From Pseudomonas sp. DTU_2021_1001937_2_SI_NGA_ILE_001 (GTDB lineage: Bacteria > Pseudomonadota > Gammaproteobacteria > Pseudomonadales > Pseudomonadaceae), in the NCBI RefSeq assembly GCF_032463525.1, contig NZ_CP135971.1, positions 3,162,001-3,226,000 of the forward strand: a stretch of DNA of 64,000 nucleotides, in the 5' to 3' direction. This document shows, piece after piece, positions 57,846-60,530 of the stretch. Each line of letters opens with the position of its first letter. Positions within the stretch are counted from its first letter, which is position 1. The position numbers and the translations under genes were made by a program. The notes below the pieces were generated by a model that saw only the letters and a program-made list of their open reading frames with translations, was not told where the DNA came from and searched no databases.

Positions 57846-58679
57846 TTAGCTCGCAGCCTGAACCCTGTATTCCACAGGGCTCAGGCCATTGAGCTTCAGC
57901 TTGATACGGTCATGGTTGTAGTAACGGATGTACTCATCCAGACCGGCTCTCAGGTCATCAATATTCTCGAACCGCTCCAAGTAGAAAAACTCTGACTTGA
58001 GCGTGCCAAAAAAGCTCTCCATCGCCGCGTTGTCCAGGCAGTTGCCCTTGCGCGACATGCTCTGTTTCACCCCGCACTGCTGCAAGGCGTGACGGTAGTG
58101 GGCCTGTTGGTATTGCCAGCCCTGATCCGAATGGATCAACAACCTGGGCTTGTCGCCCAAGCCGCTCAGCGCCTTCTCCAACATCTTGCCCACCAGGCTG
58201 TAGCTGGGGCGAGTGGCCATTTCGTAAGCCACGATCTCGCCGTTGTACAGGTCCATCACTGGCGACAGGTAGAGCTTTTGCTGAGCCACCTTGAACTCGG
58301 TCACGTCGGTGACCCACTTCTGATTCGGTCGTTGCGCCTGGAAGTTACGTTGCAGCGTGTTCGCGGCAATCTTGCCTTCCGTGCCCCGATAAGACCGGTA
58401 TTTCTTGGTTCGTACCCGCGAACGTAATCCTTGTGCAGCCATCAACCGCTCCACGACTTTCTTGTTCACTGTCACACCCTGCTTCTTGATTGCCAACGTT
58501 ATACGGCGGTAGCCGTAACGTCCTTTGTGCTGGTGATAGACCTCATTCACCAAGGCCTTGAGTTCGGCATCGCGATCCGGCTTTTTCTGGCAACCGAGTT
58601 GGTAGTAGTAAGTGCTGGACGCCAGGCCCAGCCACTGCAGCAGAGCGGCGAGCGGGAAGCGGATCTTAAGCCGCATCAC
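57846..58679 (-). CDS. IS3-family transposase OrfB (DDE integrase domain)
   Basis: A 277-aa product. HTH_21 region (KGRYGYRRITLAIK) precedes the rve/DDE core: Asp in KWVTDVTEF, Asp in IHSDQGWQY, Glu in NAAMESFFGTLKSE. The GTG at 58679 lies 2 bases after the orfA stop. The frame is open upstream in -1 register, so translation is probably by -1 frameshift into an OrfAB fusion; no canonical A6G slippery site was found. Confidence 0.92.
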   Translation of the reverse strand: MMRLKIRFPLAALLQWLGLASSTYYYQLGCQKKPDRDAELKALVNEVYHQHKGRYGYRRITLAIKKQGVTVNKKVVERLMAAQGLRSRVRTKKYRSYRGTEGKIAANTLQRNFQAQRPNQKWVTDVTEFKVAQQKLYLSPVMDLYNGEIVAYEMATRPSYSLVGKMLEKALSGLGDKPRLLIHSDQGWQYQQAHYRHALQQCGVKQSMSRKGNCLDNAAMESFFGTLKSEFFYLERFENIDDLRAGLDEYIRYYNHDRIKLKLNGLSPVEYRVQAAS

Positions 58680-58681
58680 GA

Positions 58682-59200
58682 TCAGGGCTCGTTGACGCGC
58701 CTTCGTTTCTCCTCCTCTCGCAAGGCTTTCAACTCCTTTAGGATCGCGTTCTCCATACGCATGTACTCGAGCTCACGCAGCAACTGCTCGCGCGATTTCT
58801 GGCTGTCATCGGAGGTCGTGGGCTTGAGGGGCTTGATTCGCTTGGACACGGCTGTAGGCCTTCTGGATGGGACTGCACTCGGGGTAGAAAGACCCTCACT
58901 GTAGTACCGTCGCTCCCAGATGCCTATCTGGGAAGACTGCCCGAGGTTGAAATGTGCAGCGGTTTGGCGCAGGGAAAGCTGGTGCTCGCGCCGGTACTCC
59001 ACGACCTGGCGCTTGAAGGCGGCGCTGTAGCGTCGGCCACACGAGCGAGGTCCCAGGCTGGAACGGGCTTGATAATGGGCCACCCAACGTCGAAGCAGGC
59101 TGACATCGATATCAAAGCGTCGAGCGACCGTGCGTAAACCGTCTGTGCCTTGCAGGTAGGCTTTGGCGGCGGTGAGCCTGAATGGCTCTGTGTACTTACT
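58682..59200 (-). CDS. IS3-family transposase OrfA (HTH)
   Basis: A 172-aa DNA-binding protein with two helix-turn-helix units (RTVARRFDIDVSLLRRWVAHY and LRQTAAHFNLGQSSQIGIWERRY) and a C-terminal leucine-zipper-like helix (REQLLRELEYMRMENAILKELK). The start at 59200 (MSKYTEPFR) follows the usual family N-terminus. Confidence 0.9.
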   Translation of the reverse strand, partial: SKYTEPFRLTAAKAYLQGTDGLRTVARRFDIDVSLLRRWVAHYQARSSLGPRSCGRRYSAAFKRQVVEYRREHQLSLRQTAAHFNLGQSSQIGIWERRYYSEGLSTPSAVPSRRPTAVSKRIKPLKPTTSDDSQKSREQLLRELEYMRMENAILKELKALREEEKRRRVNEP

Positions 59201-59251
59201 CATAACACCCCCAAGGGTTGGATTAATCTCCAACTTCTTGGGGGCAGTTCA

Positions 59252-59323
59252 AGAGCCGCGAAGCGACCGCCTGTTCACAGCAGATGCAGTGAATTTCCTG
59301 GCGCTTTCGCGGCTAAAGCCGCT
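59252..59323. repeat. Truncated REP doublet, left half of IS110 target
   Basis: Begins AGAGCCGCGAAGCGACCGCC and ends TTTCGCGGCTAAAGCCGCT. It is a close copy of 61518-61590 but lacks the first palindrome arm. It continues at 60496 across the IS110 insertion. Confidence 0.8.
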
Positions 59324-59344
59324 TGTGTCTTTCGACAGGGTAAA

Positions 59345-59519
59345 GTCAGAGGTGAGAGGGGTGGATGGCAACTGTTAAGCCGCGGTGCCCTGGAGCACGT
59401 GTAGGAGCCCAACTGCCATCCACTCTTTTCACTCTGACTCCAAGCTCGAACAGTTGACTGAGTCCGACCTCGAACAACAAGCGTGAGCCCGTTCAGAGTG
59501 ACCTCTCGCCCTTAAGCCT
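59345..59519 (+). ncRNA. IS110 bridge RNA with readable target and donor guides
   Basis: Lies in the leader of the transposase, as in the IS110 group. A long imperfect stem (59345-59374 with 59410-59438) encloses a loop with AAGCCGC (59377-59383), equal to the left REP target, and GTAGGAG (59401-59407), the complement of the right target CTCCTAC. A second loop has CAGTTGACT (59451-59459), matching the right end of the element CAGTTGG plus CT with one mismatch, and ACAAG (59477-59481), the complement of CTTGT at the left end. Exact RNA ends are not known. Confidence 0.82.
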
Positions 59520-59532
59520 AGAGGTTTTTCTT

Positions 59533-60462
59533 ATGACCGCCTACGCCGGAATCGATGTCGCCAAAGATACCCTGCAGATTGCGCTGTATCCCCAGAGCAA
59601 TAGCTTCTGCACCACCAACACCTCTGAAGGAATCCACCAGCTTATCCAATGGTTAAGTGATAACCGGGTCGAGCAGGTACTGGTTGAGGCCACAGGCGGC
59701 TACGAAAGGTTATCGGTCAAACTCCTGGCCAAGGCCAGATTCAAGGTCATGCGTATCAATCCGCTGCGTGCTCGCCAGTTCGCTCTGGCCATGGGCAAGC
59801 AAGCTAAAACCGACTCGATCGATGCGCAGATGCTGGCCATGTTCGCCCATGCCTTGCGAAAGAAGGAGTTTGTGGTGGCCGATGAAGCGCGCGATAAGTT
59901 GACCGAACTGGTGAACCAGCGTGACGCCTTCGTTCAGCAGCGTGATGACAACCGTCGCCGTATTCAACAAGCGCAAGAACCTGAAGTGCAGCAGGCCTAT
60001 CGGGAGCTCAATGCCAAAATCCAAGAGATGATCAAGGCAGCAGACCGACGCATTGCTGCACAGACTCGACAGGTCGATGGGGCCTTGGTGGACCGCCTGC
60101 AAGCGATCAAAGGCATCGGCGCGGTGTCGATCTCCAGCCTGTTTTGCTATCTGCCCGAGCTGGGGGATCTGAGTCGTGGACAGGTGGCGGCCTTGGCAGG
60201 AGTGGCGCCTTACAACAACGACAGTGGGACTAAGCGCGGTAACCGGCACATTTACGGCGGACGCGCGAAGCTACGCCGTGCGATGTACATGAGTACCTTG
60301 GTGATGGTCCGTTACAACGAGGACTTCAAGAACCGATACGCTCAACTTCGCGCCCGAGGTAAGTGCGCGAAGGTGGCGCTGACGGCGTGCATGCGAGTCC
60401 TGCTGGTGAGGTTAAATGCCATGGTGCGAGATGGTGCACCATGGCGAGAGGGTGCAATTTGA
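59533..60462 (+). CDS. IS110-family transposase (DEDD)
   Basis: A 309-aa RNA-guided recombinase. The RuvC-like domain has Asp8 (AGIDVAKD), Glu52 (VEATGGYE), and Asp94/Asp97 (TDSIDAQ). A coiled-coil middle (DKLTELVNQRDAFVQQRDDNRRR) leads to the C-terminal Transposase_20 domain with the serine motif APYNNDSGTKRGNRHIYGGR and LRRAMYM. It appears intact. AGAGG lies 8 bases before the ATG. REP-targeting IS110 elements (ISPpu9, ISPpu10) are known in P. putida; identity with them was not tested. Confidence 0.93.
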   Translation: MTAYAGIDVAKDTLQIALYPQSNSFCTTNTSEGIHQLIQWLSDNRVEQVLVEATGGYERLSVKLLAKARFKVMRINPLRARQFALAMGKQAKTDSIDAQMLAMFAHALRKKEFVVADEARDKLTELVNQRDAFVQQRDDNRRRIQQAQEPEVQQAYRELNAKIQEMIKAADRRIAAQTRQVDGALVDRLQAIKGIGAVSISSLFCYLPELGDLSRGQVAALAGVAPYNNDSGTKRGNRHIYGGRAKLRRAMYMSTLVMVRYNEDFKNRYAQLRARGKCAKVALTACMRVLLVRLNAMVRDGAPWREGAI

Positions 60463-60497
60463 CCGTTGGTCGATCTTCGGTGAAAGACAGTTGGCTC

Positions 60498-60530
60498 CTA
60501 CCCGGTCTACCTGAAAAAGCCGGTTCTACC
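60498..60530. repeat. Right half of the REP site split by IS110
   Basis: CCTACCCGGTCTACC continues the REP arm interrupted at 59323, followed by an AAGCCGGTTCTACC half-palindrome just before the liuE stop. Confidence 0.75.

Follow-up and report, generated by a model that had tools for sequence, protein, structure and literature searches.

How does an insertion sequence come to lie at one and the same point of a repeat that occurs throughout the genome of its host? The question is raised by an IS110-family element near the end of the window, i.e. the whole stretch of 64,000 nucleotides of Pseudomonas DNA analysed here. A preliminary description, made from the sequence letters, had read the leader of its transposase gene as a bridge RNA with one loop for the target and another for the ends of the element. 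We conclude that the leader very probably does encode such an RNA; the predicted pairing partners are both halves of the interrupted REP for the first loop and the joined ends of the element for the second. The sequence support comprises four guide matches, REP flanks in 8 of 8 copies, a two-loop fold with compensatory changes, and covariation between guides and flanks. The element and its immediate surroundings are composed as follows:

59310..59323, forward strand: left half of the interrupted REP, which is the left target, CGGCTAAAGCCG + CT
59322..60496, forward strand: IS110-family element, from left-end CT core to right-end CT core, with ends shared by 8 genome copies
59322-59323 and 60495-60496: left and right CT cores, placed by the ends of the 8 own-genome copies
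59533..60462, forward strand: IS110 transposase/recombinase gene, 309 aa, with Pfam domains PF01548 and PF02371
60495..60501, forward strand: right target CTCCTAC (CT core plus CCTAC), found in 8/8 own copies

The genome contains seven full copies of the element and one that is internally deleted, and all eight occupy the identical position in the REP. Each is preceded by GCT(A/G)AAGCCG and then CT, and followed, after the CT of the right end, by CCTAC, so that the two flanks make up one interrupted REP; the CT found at both ends of all eight copies is a dinucleotide core common to target and donor, and one of the two CT copies within 59322..60496 belongs to the target. The preliminary description had claimed that the target is a REP arm and hence a repeat found genome-wide, and this is borne out by 172 exact copies in the genome of AAGCCGCTCCTAC, the 13-mer specified by the guides (7 copies of the reversed control), together with the location of all eight element copies at such sites. 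The copy at G000:C1:548972-549395 (L008, L009) lacks most of the transposase gene and retains the bridge-RNA stretch and both ends, and therefore it is possibly mobilisable by the full copies. About 90 nt to the left of the element end two adjoining frames on the reverse strand (57846-59233), which by eye resemble orfA and orfB of the IS3 type.

The transposase scores above the cut-off for both of its Pfam domains (81.4 bits for PF01548, DEDD; 57.4 bits for PF02371, Transposase_20). Residues D8, E52, D94 and D97, which we take to be the candidate catalytic DEDD residues, are invariant in five aligned proteins, as are S231 and G232, the SG of the G--P----SG motif. The protein is related to the IS621 recombinase of solved structure (PDB 8wt6; E = 4.4e-26) and also to the ISCro4 transposase, likewise of solved structure. 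Among the 120 relatives listed, the nearest ones beyond the window's own protein are 76% and then 71% identical (the latter from P. asplenii), and none of the 120 bears the name ISPpu10 or ISPpu9. A 99% near-identical copy of the element was found in an uncultured Pseudomonas (L010). The plasmid collection held no DNA match to the element, and since its protein matches (2397 records) were all below 60%, it yielded no close relatives.

The noncoding DNA of the element is divided into 211 nt between the left core and the start codon and 32 nt between the stop codon and the right core, so the longer noncoding region lies upstream of the transposase gene, as in the IS110 group. It is this leader that contains the predicted RNA and its guides:

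59352..59510, forward strand: predicted bridge RNA (two-loop leader) with approximate ends, from the fold and from covarying structure in 23 leaders
59352..59432, forward strand: target-loop stem and loop, with arms 59352-59370 and 59414-59432
59377..59383, forward strand: left target guide AAGCCGC, identical to 59316-59322 and covarying in relatives
59384..59398, forward strand: GGTGC...GCAC hairpin between the target guides, with 4 pairs invariant in 23 leaders
59401..59407, forward strand: right target guide GTAGGAG, complement of CTCCTAC at 60495-60501
59451..59459, forward strand: left donor guide CAGTTGACT, with one mismatch to CAGTTGGCT at 60488-60496
59477..59481, forward strand: right donor guide ACAAG, complement of CTTGT at 59322-59326

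The preliminary description had named all four of these guides, and most of what it said of them holds. The identity of AAGCCGC with the left target arm and the complementarity of ACAAG to the left end of the element are exact at the positions given for them; GTAGGAG is indeed the complement of CTCCTAC, but the right arm lies at 60495-60501 and not, as had been stated, one nucleotide further on, at 60496-60502; and the segment read as CAGTTGA plus CT does match the right end, except for one internal mismatch (GACT vs GGCT). Since GG comes after the left target guide, this guide covers the C of the CT core and not the T. The core is stated to take part in all four guide pairings of IS621; here it does not, as the left target guide has C and then G, which we take as a departure from IS621 only, not reading that statement as a rule for the whole IS110 group. 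With the core T uncovered and a mismatch in the left donor guide, the agreement of the four segments is good and imperfect.

The earlier judgement that chance is an unlikely source of the four-guide agreement was put on a numerical footing by dinucleotide shuffling of the leader (59340-59519). AAGCCG and GTAGGAG occurred together in 18 of 30,000 shuffles, and the joint set AAGCCG, GTAGGAG, CAGTTG and ACAAG in 0 of 30,000. The leader also folds better than its shuffles (z = -3.26, with 1 of 200 as good), and both fold and covariation place two internal loops in it, the target loop 5' of the donor loop, with all four guides in place; this is the layout that had been proposed by analogy with IS110/IS621. 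Folding over homologues, which the preliminary description had suggested as a check, gave a sense consensus of 41 pairs for 23 leaders, in which 99.0% of cells are paired and 11 pairs show double-sided changes, as compared to 3.8 in shuffles (0/500). A covariance-model search for orphan bridge RNAs in the window's own genome returned the 8 known element places and nothing new.

To place the guides in a comparative context, relatives were assembled from 21 loci in named records and from the 33 of 398 Pseudomonas genomes, own genome included, that encode a close transposase; second copies were added by place, and loci of a second family (f14) were reached via the Rfam family sX15. The f14 family is probably the Xanthomonadaceae, an assignment that goes by the description of sX15 as an sRNA of the Xanthomonadaceae. 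The resulting list has 86 insertions, of which 84 could be parsed (L064 and L072 gave no leader match) and 75 have both flanks under the rule applied, from 24 of 28 genomes. The genomes left out of the 24-genome test are that of L019, whose right end missed the CTCC pattern, and G127, G158 and G228, in which the left flank is cut short. The conserved hairpin that separates the two guides served to fix the register in this test, with a left guide of 8 nt and a right guide of 7 nt.

The fit of guides to their own flanks in the 24 genomes came to 303; permutation gave a mean of 278.7 (sd 4.6), and in none of 20,000 permutations was 303 reached. When the data were collapsed to nine guide types, the fit was 114 of 135, and 16 of 50,000 permutations reached 114. 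The left guide alone, scored over seven positions in 38 elements, gave 204/266 vs 125.5 expected (0/50,000), and 100/133 vs 53.5 for the 19 distinct guides (0/50,000); the signal is carried by positions -5 to -1. Fourteen of the 38 rows were read by eye, namely L019, G132, G409 and 11 of the 15 loci inspected out of 29 from the second-family search, and four loci (L136, L137, L144 and L145) were omitted, as neither core nor guide was readable. Because the register in these 14 rows was chosen by eye, a match is favoured there, whereas the 24-genome test has a fixed register.

The right guide scores 7/7 in all 24 genomes, with 4 positions preset by the search pattern: this pattern demanded CTCC at the right end, so the score is partly built in, a bias of which the left guide is free. 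In the right flank, CC(T/C)AC, only the last three positions are free and one of them is variable; it is T with 4/4 guides of the TAGG kind and C with 20/20 of the GGG kind. L019, missed by the pattern and read by eye, has the flank CTTCCTA, which fits its different guide GTTAGGAAG in 7/7 positions. The transposase tree places guide switches on several branches (L062, L049, L019 and the L056-L058 clade). The preliminary description had made its reading depend on covariation between these loops and the flanks of homologous elements at other sites; the guides do track the flanks (0/20,000 and 0/50,000 in the two tests), but single elements depart, e.g. those of G165 and G364. A separate observation concerns L052-L061, where about 120 nt located 3' of the transposase gene contain a CTGTGGGAG...GCTGTC-like stretch that by eye resembles the right-guide half of the leader and is possibly a remnant of a second leader.

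What the guides follow becomes apparent when four target 13-mers are counted in 25 genomes, with both strands summed. Outside the window's own genome AAGCCGCTCCTAC is found 427 times in G127, 76 times in G308 and at most 7 times in each of the remaining 22 genomes; the element of G127 belongs to a different branch of the tree and has the guides GCCGC and GTAGGAG. The second 13-mer, AATTCGCTCCCAC, has 134 copies in G018, where the guide is CATTCG, 2 in G363 and 0 in the other 23 genomes. For AGCCCCCTCCCAC the counts are 1126 in G188, 1065 in G309, 521 in G158, 343 in G165, 141 in G179, 58 in G175 and at most 12 in the other 19, and the guides of G188, G309 and G158 read GCCCC. Finally, AGCCCGCTCCCAC is absent from G000 and G018, and among the 16 of 25 hosts with a left guide ending in CCCG or TCCG it numbers 78 to 1031 in 14, 18 in G165 and 15 in G289; in G289 the left flank is AACCCG in 4 of the 5 cases seen. 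From sequence comparison, then, the guides mostly appear to follow the REP dialect of the host, with clear exceptions in G165 and G364.

Two kinds of relatives extend this series. In G132 (L031, L068), a single copy that was read by eye and whose transposase frame has an internal stop, the insertion lies 3 nt further along the REP, and the target guides have both moved with it (the left one is CTCGCTCCT, the right one complementary to CTACAGT), the right donor guide being altered to match as well. Eight second-family relatives (L109, L126, L130, L131, L132, L133, L135 and L138) reside at a different, non-REP site, (C/G)CTAAC(G/A)C|CT, which resembles the end of an integron attC site; their guide reads TAAC(G/A)C in 6/8 and is one base off in the other two (L131 and L138).

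Among the exceptions, the three copies read in G165 (L059, L103 and L104) have flanks GCCCC and guide GCCCG. This genome has 343 sites of the CCCC type vs 18 of the CCCG type, and its transposase groups beside CCCG relatives with a weak support of 0.239; possibly the element jumped recently into this host with a tolerated mismatch and a guide that lags behind; with equal right one may say that the rule fails here. In G364 the guide AGCTCG faces the flank AGCCCG in 2/2 copies, in G188 the flank is one C short (3/7), and the left-guide fit is poor in L140 (3/7), L141 (3/7) and L148 (4/7); L062, with a left flank of 4 bases only, matches once its left guide is displaced by one base, and not otherwise. 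G308, with its 76 copies of AAGCCGCTCCTAC, and G364, with 210 of AGCCCGCTCCCAC and the guide AGCTCG, contain many REPs that their guides spell less than best, which indicates that a host can contain several REP types.

A further feature of the element would come into being only when its ends are joined:

59341..59346, forward strand: TAAAGT, predicted -10 box of a circle-junction promoter
60491..60496, forward strand: TTGGCT, predicted -35 box, which only circularisation would bring close to the left end

Across the core, exactly 17 nt separate the TTG of TTGGCT or TTGCTT from a TAnnnT box in 84 of 85 insertions, many of them copies from the same genome, and the one exception is truncated. This constancy suggests a promoter across the circle junction, its -35 box having, as judged from sequence, only 3-4 of the 6 consensus bases. 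In 17 of the 85 insertions the right end (60488-60496) has an extra G, the distance from the left end to the -10 box is one base shorter, and the spacer is still 17 nt; the left donor guide of these insertions is CAGTTGACT, and elsewhere it is CAGTTGGA, CAGTTGAA, CAGTTAGA or CAGTTGTA, so that extra G, shorter left end and altered guide look like a compensatory set. A sigma-70 scan of the window region returned nothing above threshold, and the search for terminators gave one match, formed by the REP arm and the T-rich left end, vs 0.4 expected, i.e. no excess over chance.

The course of events that these features would allow starts with excision of the element as a circle, in which TTGGCT of the right end and TAAAGT of the left end would come together as a core-spanning promoter. 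The leader transcript would then be bound by the recombinase of the DEDD type, and the element would enter one of the many matching REPs by an exchange of strands at the CT core.

The strand opposite to the predicted RNA also requires attention:

59346..59510, reverse strand: weak match to Rfam sX15 (RF02234), 33.8 bits, the predicted antisense (anti-bridge) strand

The score of this match is below the gathering score of 55, and the stricter genome search listed no sX15 in the window's genome. Minus-strand matches are likewise present in four other leaders, one of them above the gathering score, and relatives that exceed it are L019 (56.0), G132 (109.1) and G409 (120.2). The 38 sX15 loci that were examined (L031-L038, L109 and L121-L149) are a subset drawn from 33 genomes of Pseudomonas and f14, and many of the remaining matches are further copies in the same genomes. 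In 29 of the 38 the match is antisense to an IS110 transposase gene and about 21-48 nt away from its start, and in none is it sense; the transposase start is absent from the DNA examined in the other nine, five of which lie at contig ends. In G409 a weak second match (35.8 bits, the main one having 120.2) overlaps on the sense strand, and searches with the covariance model of the leader gave weak matches (up to 38 bits) opposite strong ones, as expected from stems that are near-palindromic. An attempt to call the active strand from folding was abandoned: the opposite strand folds at -51.1 and the sense strand at -49.7 kcal/mol, and as the two fold equally well, the fold alone cannot say which of them acts.

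These data bear on whether the leader guides insertion at all. It could be argued that recognition of the REP palindrome lies with the recombinase itself and that the leader is only a regulated mRNA leader, with flank matches inherited or due to chance. As this explanation would have it, one palindrome makes up the flanks of all eight copies in the window's genome, and the leader and sRNAs of ISPpu9, a REP-inserting IS110 element, have been explained as translation control (PMC8450116). We nevertheless consider it improbable, since close relatives at different REP sequences have correspondingly different guides, the second-family relatives have at their other site a guide that spells this site or is one base off, and the relation of the right guide to its flank is one of complementarity and not of identity. 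A somewhat smaller probability still is given to the explanation in which the small RNA that functions comes from the opposite strand, as an antisense RNA of the sX15/Asr9 type, and the sense leader is merely its target. The orientation of the sX15 model in the 29 antisense loci, the equally good antisense fold, and the mapping of Asr9 of ISPpu9 by S1 and Northern analyses (PMC8450116) are in its favour. Against it, the order and polarity of the guides on the sense strand are those published for IS110 elements (PMC11208160 and PMC11187229), and would be reversed on the other strand; the predicted junction promoter is sense-directed in 84/85 insertions, and the antisense promoter region conserves only a -10-like hexamer (TAnnnT-like), without a consensus -35.

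Hardly any weight attaches, in our estimate, to the notion that the guides are functionless pieces of host REPs acquired by recombination with the flanking DNA. The left guide is identical to flank sequence, as such an origin would predict, but the guides flank a conserved hairpin with the right one in reverse complement, they are unchanged in all eight copies despite different outer flanks, and they fit at fixed positions across 24 genomes. The leader guides match the halves of the REP and mostly covary with the host repeat, and therefore the leader is likely to be a bridge RNA that would pick the landing site. As the relatives share a common plan and differ in their guides, retargeting appears to follow the REP sequence of the host.

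With the sense leader taken as the bridge RNA, its antisense partner may have a role of its own. The sX15 RNA was reportedly found by RNA-seq in Xanthomonas. According to a study that predates bridge RNAs (PMC8450116), ISPpu9 has an RNA of about 180 nt, Asr9, complementary to the transposase leader, whose overproduction raised transposition; a further RNA, Ssr9, is sense, complementary to Asr9 and bounded by end boxes, with orphan copies outside REPs, and it has the appearance of another bridge RNA, or else of a mini-element devoid of transposase and directed to a different target. The position of sX15 antisense to IS110 leaders links it to Asr9 and suggests a conserved anti-bridge RNA; we infer that the two are one kind of thing, the antisense of a bridge RNA. 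More speculatively, they may mark a widespread anti-bridge RNA, a full-length antisense covering all four guides, which would switch the leader between two uses: folded, it would serve as guide RNA; opened by the antisense, as messenger for the transposase. This we consider a tentative proposal, more doubtful than not. Were it true, anti-bridge RNA would be a conserved control layer over RNA-guided transposition. With the sX15 result an sRNA family of Rfam is reassigned, and antisense control of bridge RNAs becomes open to direct testing; the identity of sX15 as a leader antisense was not met in the open-licence literature searched.

The element may be compared to several known systems. Tobes and Pareja (2006; PMC1525189) located ISPpu9 and ISPpu10 at one point of the P. 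putida REP, and ISPpu10 of Pseudomonas putida KT2440 resembles the element in belonging to the IS110 family, in inserting at one point of a Pseudomonas REP and in its 2-bp repeat. The four guides of ISPpu10 (LTG, RTG, LDG and RDG) were already predicted in 2024, according to the legend of Extended Data Fig. 10 of Durrant et al. (PMC11208160), who define guides in this way and report covariation over thousands of IS110 targets. Since bridge RNAs of REP-inserting IS110 elements, ISPpu10 included, had thus been predicted, the element is another example of a published system: a well-supported new example, and not a new kind.

With IS621 of E. coli it shares a DEDD/PF02371 recombinase, a CT core, a REP target, and a leader RNA in which the target loop precedes the donor loop (PMC11208160; PDB 8wt6); it differs in that its left target guide pairs with the core C and not with the T, and in that its right target guide comprises 7 nt including the core, as compared to 4 in IS621 and more in some orthologues. 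Siddiquee et al. (2024; PMC11187229) describe RNA-guided target choice in both groups and mention natural reprogramming; ISEc21 with its seekRNA (IS110 type) and ISPa11 (IS1111 type, in the REP of P. aeruginosa) are both like the element in RNA-guided target choice. The noncoding region is located upstream in the IS110 type; in ISPa11 it is downstream and the guide order is reversed. ISPpu9 has in common with the element the REP target and the long leader, and has in addition its antisense RNA of about 180 nt (PMC8450116), while RF02234 corresponds to the leader of the window in stretch and length, on the opposite strand and in IS110 leaders, with a match under the gathering score.

A series of guides in host dialects was not met in the open-licence literature searched. 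What the present relatives add to the known systems is such a natural series: a single recombinase lineage apparently redirected, host by host, to the local REP dialect through changes in its guides. To it belong the 3-nt shift inside the REP of G132 and the possible host jump with a lagging guide in G165; a series of this kind is test material for mismatch tolerance and for the co-evolution of guides and targets.
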